Below are positions 29,781-33,613 of a DNA stretch of 49,566 nucleotides, in pieces (within the stretch, counting starts at the first letter, position 1; each line of letters opens with the position of its first letter). The stretch lies in the NCBI GenBank assembly GCA_035697325.1, contig DASSDB010000001.1, positions 1-49,566 of the forward strand. The letters are read 5' to 3'. The DNA comes from Candidatus Saccharimonadales bacterium. Its GTDB lineage: Bacteria > Patescibacteriota > Saccharimonadia > Saccharimonadales > Saccharimonadaceae. The notes beneath the pieces were generated by a model. The model was not told the origin of the DNA and ran no database searches. It was given only the letters and a program-made list of their open reading frames with translations. A program made the translations under genes and the position numbers.

Positions 29781-29975
29781 ACTGGCAACAGTGTAACAGA
29801 AAATGTACTTTTGTCTAAGGATAATGCCAGAACGGATCAGAAACTGGCACGTATTTAATAAATATTTCATAATACGCTCGGCTTTGGGCGAGATTTTTAG
29901 TTCTAAGCTATCTATTGCCTCTGGCATATCAGGGAGAAATGAGGTAAAATAAGAGCAACGTTCTTTTGTATGCCT

Positions 29976-30158
29976 ACAGGAGATGAGCGGCTATCACCCG
30001 CGAAGTTACTGGGAAGAAATCTTTTTAGAGAGTAGAACCCAGCGTGTATACGCGACGTTACAGCAGACAATCAAGCGCTAGAAAGAATCTCTTTTTAGAA
30101 ACTGGATGGTACCGTCCGCCGCAAGCGGATTCCAGTGACTAAATAGAGATTTTTGTTT
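29976..30158 (+). promoter_or_regulatory. T-box riboswitch (ultrashort Stem I, Ile specifier)
   Basis: Stem I is GCGG / CCGC (29987-29990, 29998-30001) with loop CTATCAC that carries AUC (29993-29995), an isoleucine codon. GGGAAGAA and AGTAGAACCC (30011-30040) match a conserved pair in actinobacterial ileS T-boxes. A small stem GCGT / ACGC follows (30042-30053). The antiterminator has ACTGGA / TCCAGT, the bulge TGGTACC (30107-30113, canonical UGGNACC) and GTCCGC / GCGGAT. The whole element is embedded in a 13-bp helix, AATCTCTTTTTAG / CTAAATAGAGATT (one mismatch), followed by TTTGTTTT. It controls GNAT-ileS by sensing uncharged tRNA-Ile. Confidence 0.93.
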
Positions 30159-30173
30159 TAAGAAAGGCAAAAG

Positions 30174-30701
30174 ATGAAGACCGGCGTGTATACGATTAGA
30201 ACCATCCAAGAAGCTGATCAGCTGCCAGTTTTGGCTATGCAGGCAAAATCCTGGCTTGATACATACCCTAACCCAGAAAAAGGGGTATCGAAAGAATGGG
30301 TAGAAGCCAGGACAAAACAGTGGATGACTGATGAGAATCTGAAGAAGCGTCGAGAATTTATCCGTGCTAGTAATAAAGGTGATTCGTTATATATTGTTGC
30401 TGAGAATGAAAAGGGGGTGATCGTTGGCCTTGGAATCTGCCGTAATGAAGCGGGAAAATACCGTCTTGGTGCACTTTACGTTGATGTAGCTCATCATGGT
30501 TCGGGGGTTGCACATCGGTTGATGGAGAAACTTCTGTCTTGGGCCGGCCCAGCTACGATCGAGCTTGAAGTCGTTTCGTATAACGAGCGCGCAAAAGCAT
30601 TCTATCGTAAGTACGGATTTAGAGAAGTTGAGGGATCAGATCATATTTTGCATGAAATTTTGCCAGTTATAACAATGGTGCGGGAAGGAGAAAAGGGATG
30701 A
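30174..30701 (+). CDS. GNAT-family N-acetyltransferase
   Basis: 175 residues with the GNAT core: LYVAENE-type strands, RLGALYVDVAHHGSGVAHRL (acetyl-CoA motif A, with HHGSGVA for the usual QxxGxG/A) and NERAKAFYRKYGF near the end. It acetylates an amine, unknown which. It sits between the T-box and ileS and overlaps ileS by four bases, so its supply is tied to isoleucine status. AGAAAGG is the Shine-Dalgarno, just 3' of the terminator-like stem. Confidence 0.9.
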   Translation: MKTGVYTIRTIQEADQLPVLAMQAKSWLDTYPNPEKGVSKEWVEARTKQWMTDENLKKRREFIRASNKGDSLYIVAENEKGVIVGLGICRNEAGKYRLGALYVDVAHHGSGVAHRLMEKLLSWAGPATIELEVVSYNERAKAFYRKYGFREVEGSDHILHEILPVITMVREGEKG

Positions 30702-33613
30702 AATTCAAAGCAAATACGAGAAGGCGAGCACTTGAATACGAGAAAGCCCTCGTTGATTTCTGGAAAAAAAACAAAACGTTTGAAAAGTCGGTTGAAAATC
30801 GATCGGAAAGCAACGGCTATGTATTTTACGATGGTCCACCATTTATCACAGGCGTGCCGCATCATGGGACTCTTCTCAGCTCAATCGTTAAGGACGCAGT
30901 TCCGCGCTATCAGACAATGAAAGGCAAACGAGTAGAGCGCGTATGGGGCTGGGATACGCATGGACTGCCGGCTGAGAATTTCGTTGAAAAAAAACTTGGT
31001 ATTACTGATCGGCATGAAATCGGGACCAAAATTAGCCTTGCCGAGTATATTACGACAGCTCGTGAAAGTATGATTCAGACGGGTGGTTTATGGGAAGACA
31101 CGATTGACCGTATCGGTCGTTGGGTTGATTTTAAAGGCGCGTACAAAACCATGGATAAGGACTACATGGAAAGTGTGTGGTGGGCGTTTAAACAACTCTA
31201 CGAGAAGGGCAAAATTTATGAAGGTGAGCGCGTGCTTATGTACGACACCAAATGGGCGACGCCACTCTCAAAAGCCGAGGTAACCATGGACGCTGGCGCG
31301 TACCAGGTAGTGACTGATCCAAGCGTTTATGTGAAGTTTAAAATGACAGATGAAGATGTTTACTTATTGGCGTGGACAACAACGCCATGGACGTTGCCCG
31401 GCAATACGGCCCTTGCTATCAATAAAGAAACCGAATATGCAGAAGTTGAATTGGATGGCGAACGATTTGTCTTGGCAAAAGAATTACTTGACAAAGCTCT
31501 TACCGATGAGAAGCACAATGTGTTGCCGTATAAAGTTGTTCGTGAGCTGAAAGGCGGTGAACTTGTAGGTAAAACGTACGAACCACTTTTTGCGAACAGG
31601 GGGAAGAACGCGCATAAGATCTGGGCGGCGGATTATGTCACGACAGATTCTGGTACCGGTATCGTTCATCTTGCGCCGGCTTATGGCGAAGAGGACTTCA
31701 TATTGGCACAAGAAAAAAATATTCCGGTTATTCATGTTCTCGACGAATACGGCAAATATACTGAAGGCGACTGGCGGGGGCAAGATGTTTGGGAAACGAA
31801 CAAGGCAATTGCGAAGGAATTAAAAGAGCGCGGCGTTGTTTGGAAAATCGAGTATATTCAGCATGAATACCCTCACAACCTTCGCAATGGTAATCGCCTT
31901 ATGTACCGGGCCCACCCGAGTTGGTTTATGGATATCGATGGCCAGCGCGAAGAAATGCTAGAGCAAAATACGGAGAATATCAACTGGTTTCCAGAGCATA
32001 TTAAGCACGGTCGCTTTGAAAAAACGGTACTCCAGGCGCCCGATTGGAACCTTTCACGTGATCGTTTTTGGGCGACGGCCATGCCTGTTTGGAAAGGAAC
32101 GGATAGCAACGGTAAAGAGCATATCAAAGTTGTGGGAAGTTACGCCGAGCTGAAGGAATTAAGTGGGATTGAGCTTGAAGATTATCATCGTCCTTGGGTT
32201 GATGACATTGAATTTGATCTTGATGGCGTGCATTACAAGCGCATCGAAAAGGTGATCGATTGTTGGTTTGAGAGTGGTAGCATGCCATTTGCGCAGTTCC
32301 ACTATCCATTTGAAAACGTTGAAAAATTCGAACAGAATTTCCCCGGTGATTTCATTGTTGAATACGTGGGTCAGGTTCGCGCCTGGTTTTATTATGTGCA
32401 TGCTGTAAATGTGGGATTGTTCGGCCGCAATGCATTTAAAAATGTCATTACGACGGGTACGCTAGCGGGGAATGACGGGCGCAAAATGAGTAAAAGCTTT
32501 GGTAACTTTACCGACCCGAACGAGCTCATGGATCAGTACTCGGCTGATAGCTTGCGCTTTTTGCTCCTCAGCTCTCCGGTGTTAAACGGCGAAGACTTCG
32601 CACTCATCGATAAGGACGTAAGTGACGTTGCGCGTAAGCTGAGTATGATCTGGAACATGTATGATTTCTTAACGATGTATGCCGAAGTTGATGGTTGGGA
32701 ATGGAACGGCGACATGAATGATCCGACTGAACAGCTTAAAAATCCGCTTGATCAGTGGATTGTGAGTCGCGTTCACCAGCTCAATCTTGAGATTCAGAAA
32801 AATATGGATACGTACGATATCCCAAATGCGACCAAACCGATTTTGCCATTTATAGAAGACGCATCCAACTGGTACGTACGCCGCAGTCGCCGCCGGTTCT
32901 GGAAGAGCGACGAGCAAGAAGATAAGGACGACGCTTACAAGACGCTTCATTATGTGCTGGTTCATTTGTCGCAGATAATCGCACCATTTACACCGTTCTT
33001 AGCTGAGGAATTGTACCAGAAATTGACGGGCGGTGAGAGTGTTCATTTACTTGACTGGCCAGTTGCGGGACATATTAACGAGTTGATACTCAAAGAAATG
33101 GGGGCTATTCGCCAGGCGATTAATGACGGTCTTTCCAAGCGCGCAGCTGAAAAAGTAAAAGTTCGCCAGCCGCTTGCTAAAGCAACTCTGGTAAGTGTAT
33201 TGAGCAGTGCGGTACCCGAAAAGCTTAACGCTGAACTTGTTGAAATCGTGAAGGATGAGCTCAATGTGAAGAAAGTTGAGGCGGTGAGTGGACCTGAAGT
33301 CGGAGGCAGTCCAAATCCTTCGGTTGAATTGGATTTTGCACTGACGCCAGAACTGAAGCGCGAAGGTCTCGTGCGCGAAGTGATCCGTCATGTACAAAGT
33401 GCCCGTAAATCAGCCGGACTTAGTGTGGATGATCGGATTATCCTAGGTCTTGAAACAGCCGACAACGAATTGCAAAAAGCGATTGAAGAACACCGCGATG
33501 TCATCGCAGCGGAAACGTTAGCGAACGGCGTGAAAGACGGCGAGCTTGAATATAAGACCGAAGTAAAAATAGAGGGTATGGTTTTGGTTGTATCTCTAGA
33601 AAAAACTGCTTAA
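30698..33613 (+). CDS. ileS: Isoleucyl-tRNA synthetase (eukaryote-like type)
   Basis: 971 residues; charges tRNA-Ile. Class I landmarks: FITGVPHHGTLL in the HIGH position, a long editing domain (TTPWTLPGNTAL), and GRKMSKSFGN. The PPFxTGxPHxG form and the C-terminal domain without a zinc-finger place it with the eukaryote-like (mupirocin-insensitive) branch. The HIGH tetrad reads HHGT, without the last His. Cotranslated with the GNAT gene and under the T-box. Confidence 0.97.
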   Translation: MKFKANTRRRALEYEKALVDFWKKNKTFEKSVENRSESNGYVFYDGPPFITGVPHHGTLLSSIVKDAVPRYQTMKGKRVERVWGWDTHGLPAENFVEKKLGITDRHEIGTKISLAEYITTARESMIQTGGLWEDTIDRIGRWVDFKGAYKTMDKDYMESVWWAFKQLYEKGKIYEGERVLMYDTKWATPLSKAEVTMDAGAYQVVTDPSVYVKFKMTDEDVYLLAWTTTPWTLPGNTALAINKETEYAEVELDGERFVLAKELLDKALTDEKHNVLPYKVVRELKGGELVGKTYEPLFANRGKNAHKIWAADYVTTDSGTGIVHLAPAYGEEDFILAQEKNIPVIHVLDEYGKYTEGDWRGQDVWETNKAIAKELKERGVVWKIEYIQHEYPHNLRNGNRLMYRAHPSWFMDIDGQREEMLEQNTENINWFPEHIKHGRFEKTVLQAPDWNLSRDRFWATAMPVWKGTDSNGKEHIKVVGSYAELKELSGIELEDYHRPWVDDIEFDLDGVHYKRIEKVIDCWFESGSMPFAQFHYPFENVEKFEQNFPGDFIVEYVGQVRAWFYYVHAVNVGLFGRNAFKNVITTGTLAGNDGRKMSKSFGNFTDPNELMDQYSADSLRFLLLSSPVLNGEDFALIDKDVSDVARKLSMIWNMYDFLTMYAEVDGWEWNGDMNDPTEQLKNPLDQWIVSRVHQLNLEIQKNMDTYDIPNATKPILPFIEDASNWYVRRSRRRFWKSDEQEDKDDAYKTLHYVLVHLSQIIAPFTPFLAEELYQKLTGGESVHLLDWPVAGHINELILKEMGAIRQAINDGLSKRAAEKVKVRQPLAKATLVSVLSSAVPEKLNAELVEIVKDELNVKKVEAVSGPEVGGSPNPSVELDFALTPELKREGLVREVIRHVQSARKSAGLSVDDRIILGLETADNELQKAIEEHRDVIAAETLANGVKDGELEYKTEVKIEGMVLVVSLEKTA

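Follow-up and report, generated by a model that had tools for sequence, protein, structure and literature searches.

Genomic Context and Elements of the ileS Leader

The window analyzed in this work is the whole stretch of 49,566 nt from a Candidatus Saccharimonadales bacterium (GCA_035697325.1, contig DASSDB010000001.1, forward strand, positions 1 to 49,566). Its beginning (1-662) contains the 3′ end of the 23S rRNA and a 5S rRNA gene. The leader under study is flanked by radC, which is encoded on the opposite strand, and by an operon in which a GNAT acetyltransferase gene is followed by ileS, with an overlap of 4 bases (Table 1). Since radC lies on the other strand, the outer hairpin of the leader does not terminate the upstream gene. 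The GNAT assignment was made at the family level only, because the scores fall below the curated cut-offs. A gene without an obvious role related to isoleucine was also seen between the T-box and ileS at the related loci L005, L009, L017, L023, L024, L057, L074, and L081; at L017 it encodes DNA-3-methyladenine glycosylase I. The candidate promoter upstream of the leader is weak, as the consensus scan gave 21 matches in the region, where chance alone would give 14.8.

Table 1. Coordinates of the leader elements and of the downstream genes in the window.
Feature	Position	Strand	Sequence or basis
Candidate promoter, upstream of leader	29921..29950	+	CTGGCA-18-TAAAAT; consensus scan
Stem I, short hairpin	29987..30001	+	GCGG-CTATCAC-CCGC; read from sequence
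Specifier (Ile), in Stem I loop (29991-29997)	29993-29995	+	ATC; read from sequence
Stem II with S-turn motif	30009..30042	+	CTGGG/CCCAG, GAAGAA...AGTAGAA; read from sequence
Putative Stem IIA/B pseudoknot region	30043..30064	+	assigned by position from T-box order
Purine string (RRRxG), 5′ of Stem III	30073..30077	+	AAGCG; sequence
Stem III	30078..30098	+	CTAGAAAGA (30078-30086) with TCTTTTTAG (30090-30098), nine pairs, loop ATC, -7.0 kcal/mol
Outer helix, 5′ arm (Stem III loop + 3′ strand; shared strand)	30086..30098	+	AATCTCTTTTTAG
AA after Stem III	30099..30100	+	sequence
Helix A1, 5′ strand	30102..30106	+	CTGGA
T-box bulge	30107..30113	+	TGGTACC
Helix A2	30114..30130	+	GTCCGC/GCGGAT, loop CGCAA, G-U pair 30114-30130 at base
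Helix A1, 3′ strand	30131..30135	+	TCCAG
Outer helix, 3′ arm	30139..30151	+	CTAAATAGAGATT
U-tract	30150..30159	+	TTTTTGTTTT
Shine-Dalgarno-like, outside outer helix	30161..30167	+	AGAAAGG; read from sequence
GNAT-family acetyltransferase gene, first of operon	30174..30701	+	scores under curated cut-offs
ileS, isoleucine--tRNA ligase	30698..33613	+	TIGR00392, 780.7 bits vs cut-off 621.4

The leader contains the characteristic elements of a T-box. The specifier agrees with the downstream ileS, and an ATC-type loop was detected with a regular expression in 92 of the 102 nested relatives (defined below). The purine string, Stem III, and the following AA correspond to the RRRxG-Stem III-AA motif of the T-box discriminator, as defined in the consulted part of PMC7583486; an RRRxG-like match is present in 96 of the 102 relatives. 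According to the same part of that source, the discriminator needs Stem III for the tRNA 3′ end, and no appreciable tRNA binding occurs without it. Helices A1 and A2 flank a 7-nt bulge and A2 has a G-U pair at its base, which is typical of T-boxes. The UGGU of the bulge follows the UGGN consensus and is complementary to the ACCA (with A73) of the tRNA-Ile(GAU) from the same genome. In 15 of the 102 nested T-boxes, e.g., L004, L017, and L050, the N position is occupied by A (10) or C (5) and not by T.

The Rfam T-box model RF00230 aligns to 29974-30137 at 24.0 bits, so its gathering threshold of 93, which is a detection threshold and not a biological feature, misses this leader. The alignment itself places 30078-30098 in Stem III of the model.

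The same genome carries a second T-box (L091, G000:C2:6655-6802, minus strand), followed by an ORF that, by eye, starts like ThrRS. Its UGGA bulge matches T73 of tRNA-Thr(GGU), and its terminator hairpin ACATGCGATA...TATCGCATGTTTTT begins at the edge of A1, with hardly any overlap.

The Outer Helix and the Strand Shared with Stem III

An outer helix encloses the intact antiterminator, and its 3′ arm leads straight into the U-tract. The arms are paired at 12 of 13 positions, the sole mismatch being T30093 against T30144. Such pairing was reached by 5 of 20,000 composition-preserving shuffles of both flanks. For 30080-30160, the nested hairpin has the minimum free energy (MFE), -31.7 kcal/mol, which corresponds to a z of -6.4 relative to dinucleotide shuffles. 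The sequence-only reading, which had described enclosing arms with one mismatch that run into a U-tract and an antiterminator nested in one long terminator-like hairpin, was correct on both counts. A hairpin followed by a U-tract ahead of a gene is also a feature of the class I platform.

What the sequence-only reading lacked is that the 5′ arm of the outer helix doubles as the 3′ strand and loop of Stem III. Because the outer helix takes up this 3′ strand and the loop, the two helices are mutually exclusive; A1/A2 is compatible with either of them. T30093, mismatched in the outer helix, pairs with A30083 in Stem III.

The sequence-only reading had also proposed that a near copy of the 5′ arm at 30017-30028 could compete with it. 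The copy does exist, since the tip of Stem II, a variable part, contains the exact 9-mer TCTTTTTAG (30020-30028), but an equivalent was found in only 1 of the 102 nested T-boxes, namely that of the window. The near copy, conserved nowhere else, therefore looks like chance and was rejected as a competitor.

Predicted Folding during Transcription

We calculated the free-RNA ensemble, without tRNA, for successive 3′ ends of the transcript. For 3′ ends at 30098-30139, Stem III reaches just 0.04-0.47, and A1 is poorly formed until the 3′ arm appears. With the 3′ end at 30140-30147, Stem III predominates (about 0.5-0.8); at 30148-30151, shortly before the end of the U-tract, the outer helix takes its place. 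G-C pairs make up 28% of the eight pairs closest to the U-tract, compared to 44% in 25 control T-boxes; as this part of the stem is AU-rich, termination may be inefficient.

Nested Sites among Relatives

Two collections of related leaders were used. A search with the IleRS N-terminus gave 100 relatives, including the genome of the window, with upstream DNA for 90 of them. An exact-pattern scan of named genomes, in which the pattern selects the T-rich shared strand and not the 3′ arm, gave 112 stretches, mostly named Candidatus Saccharibacteria or Saccharimonadia. Filtering for the bulge, A1, and S-turn motifs passed 131 sites (113 unique) and rejected 75 motif occurrences. On the basis of MFE folds of the last ~100 nt, the unique sites were classified as nested (102), A1/A2-breaking (4), without a U-tract (4), and unclear (3), some of the latter two groups being matches in coding sequences or truncated contigs. 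The named genome TM7i (CP075337.1, L138) is one of those with the nested form. In the ileS-anchored subset, which is unselected for the shared strand, 43 of 51 sites (at 50 of the 90 loci) are nested. At two loci, L037 and L053, the terminator that precedes ileS is A1-breaking.

All 102 nested sites can adopt two folds: an ON fold, in which Stem III has 4 pairs or more, and an OFF fold, in which the outer helix has 6 or more. The two helices have at least 3 nt in common at 101 of these sites, and at 97 the overlap lies mainly in the 3′ strand of Stem III. In the OFF fold, A1 remains intact in the window and at 100 of the 102 sites; the strand exchange of class I is thus not seen. The equivalents of the U-tract contain on average 7.6 T per 9 nt. 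The OFF fold is more stable than the ON fold by a mean of 15.6 kcal/mol (5.6-24.1). This predicted gap would be large for tRNA binding to offset, unless the control is kinetic.

Covariation of the Shared Strand with Both Partners

Covariation was analyzed in 57 representatives of the 102 nested sites, for the outer helix on a structure-blind MAFFT alignment. In the outer helix, 86.0% of 922 cells are paired and 14 of 18 pairs show changes in both partners. Its covariation was 0.397, in comparison with 0.233 in shuffles (0 of 500 reached the value) and 0.12-0.18 when the arms were slid, a comparison in which the counted pairs are favored because they were picked from folds of the same sequences. 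The corresponding values for Stem III were 81.6% of 473 cells paired and a covariation of 0.294 versus 0.218 (0 of 500 shuffles). The covariation of the outer helix among relatives, which the sequence-only reading had named as a test, is therefore present and strong across Saccharibacteria.

The result was also obtained without an alignment. The cognate outer arms scored 27.3 against 19.0 when permuted (sd 0.46; 2000 permutations; n = 102). The 12-nt shared strand scored 17.3 with its own Stem III 5′ arm (14.4 permuted; best of 2000 permutations, 15.3) and 21.1 with its own outer 3′ arm (15.8 permuted; best of 2000, 16.9). The shared strand thus covaries with both partners. One version of the Stem III permutation showed no signal (11.96 vs. 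12.06), since its windows split the 5′ arm into the wrong half. By eye, L041, L140, L152, and L156 have a divergent 5′ side of Stem III or an insertion there, with the shared strand and the outer arm kept.

Control T-Boxes and Occurrence in Other Patescibacteria

As controls, we used the RF00230 hits on both strands of four genomes reached via non-Saccharibacteria loci (titled Syntrophaceticus, Clostridia, Erysipelotrichaceae, and Oscillospiraceae). Among 30 Firmicutes-type loci, 19 were A1/A2-breaking, 1 nested, 1 local, 4 unclear, 4 without a U-tract, and 1 weak. The sole control called nested (L207) has a broken A1 and, by eye, an A1-competing terminator. A1 survives in the MFE fold of 3 of the 25 usable controls, as opposed to 100 of the 102 nested sites. 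At three loci of one control genome (L219, L222, and L225 of G102), the terminator appears by eye to have yet another topology: the A1 5′ strand and the UGG of the bulge pair with a downstream CACCTTTTT-like arm, and A2 is enclosed.

R1, a covariance model built on the nested region, matched in 69 of the 379 genomes of the phylum. Among the 46 matches examined, out of 73 listed, 22 were nested, 8 A1/A2-breaking, 5 local, 4 unclear, 4 without a U-tract, and 3 without a placeable bulge; the nested share in other classes is biased upward, as R1 includes the outer helix. The genes downstream of the examined matches include thrS, ileS, and valS. At several of these matches, inspected by eye, the purine string itself forms the outer 5′ arm and no Stem III hairpin is visible. 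For nested sites outside the class (20 of 39 examined), the cognate arms scored 15.2 in comparison with 12.0 (sd 0.54), which exceeds the best of 5000 permutations (14.1). In other Patescibacteria, the terminator hairpin at the loci L262, L269, L274, L291, and L295 is self-contained, follows A1 immediately, and barely overlaps with the discriminator.

Proposed Mechanism and Alternative Explanations

Quite likely, the leader is a tRNA-Ile T-box of a Saccharibacteria-type genome, the terminator of which captures Stem III. In the ON state, the discriminator would consist of Stem III (30078-30098) and of A1/A2 with its UGGU bulge, and it would grip the 3′ end of uncharged tRNA-Ile and allow readthrough into GNAT-ileS. 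The tRNA-Ile, read by the specifier ATC and by the UGGU-ACCA pairing, would hold Stem III and A1/A2 together. In the OFF state, with tRNA charged or absent, the emerging 3′ arm (30139-30151) would invade Stem III from its base, displace the 5′ strand, and pair with the 3′ strand and the loop. One long hairpin would result, with A1/A2 still folded inside and the U-tract at its end, and RNA polymerase would stop. The two helices, their common strand and covariation, the preserved A1 of the OFF fold, and the bulge match to A73 were established computationally; this termination and the tipping of the balance by tRNA are inferred. As to the direction of the response, bound uncharged tRNA-Ile most likely permits readthrough, in line with normal T-box logic.

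The sequence-only reading had suggested the reverse, that bound tRNA might favor termination, with the tRNA-stabilized A1/A2 stacked on the outer helix. A1/A2 and the outer helix do fit in one hairpin, but formation of the outer helix does away with Stem III, a conserved and covarying element that, according to the consulted part of PMC7583486, is required for binding of the tRNA 3′ end. Since the outer helix takes a strand of the stem needed to hold the tRNA, bound tRNA should oppose it. Moreover, L037 and L053 have A1-breaking terminators before the same gene, where normal logic is expected, and turning ileS off in response to uncharged tRNA would make no physiological sense. The suggestion thus found no support, and we consider such inverted logic very unlikely. 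A fixed leader terminator, providing basal attenuation with the tRNA switch lost or located elsewhere, would agree with the far higher stability of the OFF fold. The leaders nevertheless retain the specifier, the S-turn, the RRRxG-Stem III-AA motif, and A1/A2 with the UGGN bulge, together with the dual covariation, and in a dead switch the complementarity of Stem III would not be maintained, which makes this explanation highly improbable as well.

The hairpin could instead control translation or mRNA stability, by placing the shared strand on the Shine-Dalgarno sequence when Stem III is open or by forming a processing site. The shared strand is rich in pyrimidines and complementary to the purine-rich Shine-Dalgarno regions (cognate score of 17.7 vs. 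16.3 permuted, sd 0.30, 0 of 2000 permutations, n = 95 of 102), and the ileS T-boxes of Actinobacteria are translational, as stated in the consulted part of PMC1262725. The Shine-Dalgarno effect is small compared with that of the outer helix, though, AGGAG or GGAGG occurs within the 3′ arm in just 3 of the 102 sites, and the U-tract directly after the helix, which translational control does not need, is strongly conserved. We therefore regard a role of this kind as unlikely. A switch at A1/A2 as in known T-boxes, through some other downstream pairing, would agree with the four A1/A2-breaking sites among the 113 unique ones. For the window it seems extremely improbable: the OFF fold keeps A1 here and at 100 of the 102 nested sites, and no downstream competitor of A1/A2 was seen before the U-tract.

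Comparison with Known T-Box Systems

Beyond the window, it appears somewhat more probable than otherwise that a distinct T-box platform operates in Saccharibacteria and much of Patescibacteria, with Stem III, the aminoacylation sensor, serving as the switching strand. Capture by the terminator would involve Stem III, or the purine string in leaders that have lost Stem III, with A1/A2 and the bulge left folded, so the grip on the tRNA could in principle re-form by reverse strand displacement. Explanations of T-box switching have so far relied on competition for A1/A2. In the present leader, this competition is shifted one stem upstream, and the role of Stem III alone as the carrier of the genetic decision is therefore directly testable. 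A literature search, with most subscription papers outside its scope, found neither such a platform nor a description of T-boxes from Saccharibacteria or Patescibacteria, and no T-box was found in the consulted parts of PMC11665869 and PMC4508563. Our data suggest tRNA-sensing control in these host-dependent bacteria, for which that search found none.

The leader shares with class I T-boxes such as Bacillus subtilis glyQS the specifier-anticodon pairing, the RRRxG-Stem III-AA motif, A1/A2 with the UGGN bulge, a hairpin resembling an intrinsic terminator with a U-tract, and a downstream aminoacyl-tRNA synthetase gene; the S-turn of Stem II is found in class I members other than glyQS. In class I T-boxes, as described in the consulted parts of PMC7583486 and PMC10907184, the 5′ strand of the terminator is made up of the 3′ strands of A1/A2. 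Here, in contrast, it is the 3′ strand of Stem III that the terminator uses, with A1/A2 remaining folded. Compared with class I T-boxes such as glyQS, Stem I is also very short. The class II ileS T-boxes of Actinobacteria have, like the window, a short Stem I. Their Shine-Dalgarno box is sequestered by a hairpin, according to the part of PMC1262725 consulted; in the window, the Shine-Dalgarno-like sequence (30161-30167) lies past the U-tract and outside the 30086-30151 helix, and it is not sequestered. L037 and L053 have a homologous leader ahead of ileS as well, and differ in that their terminators (TTCCAA-TGAAAAG-TTGGAA-TTTTT and similar) disrupt A1. Judged by its sequence features, the leader is a T-box, yet it has neither the strand exchange of class I nor the Shine-Dalgarno sequestration of class II. 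It would represent a T-box variant with a terminator that captures Stem III.
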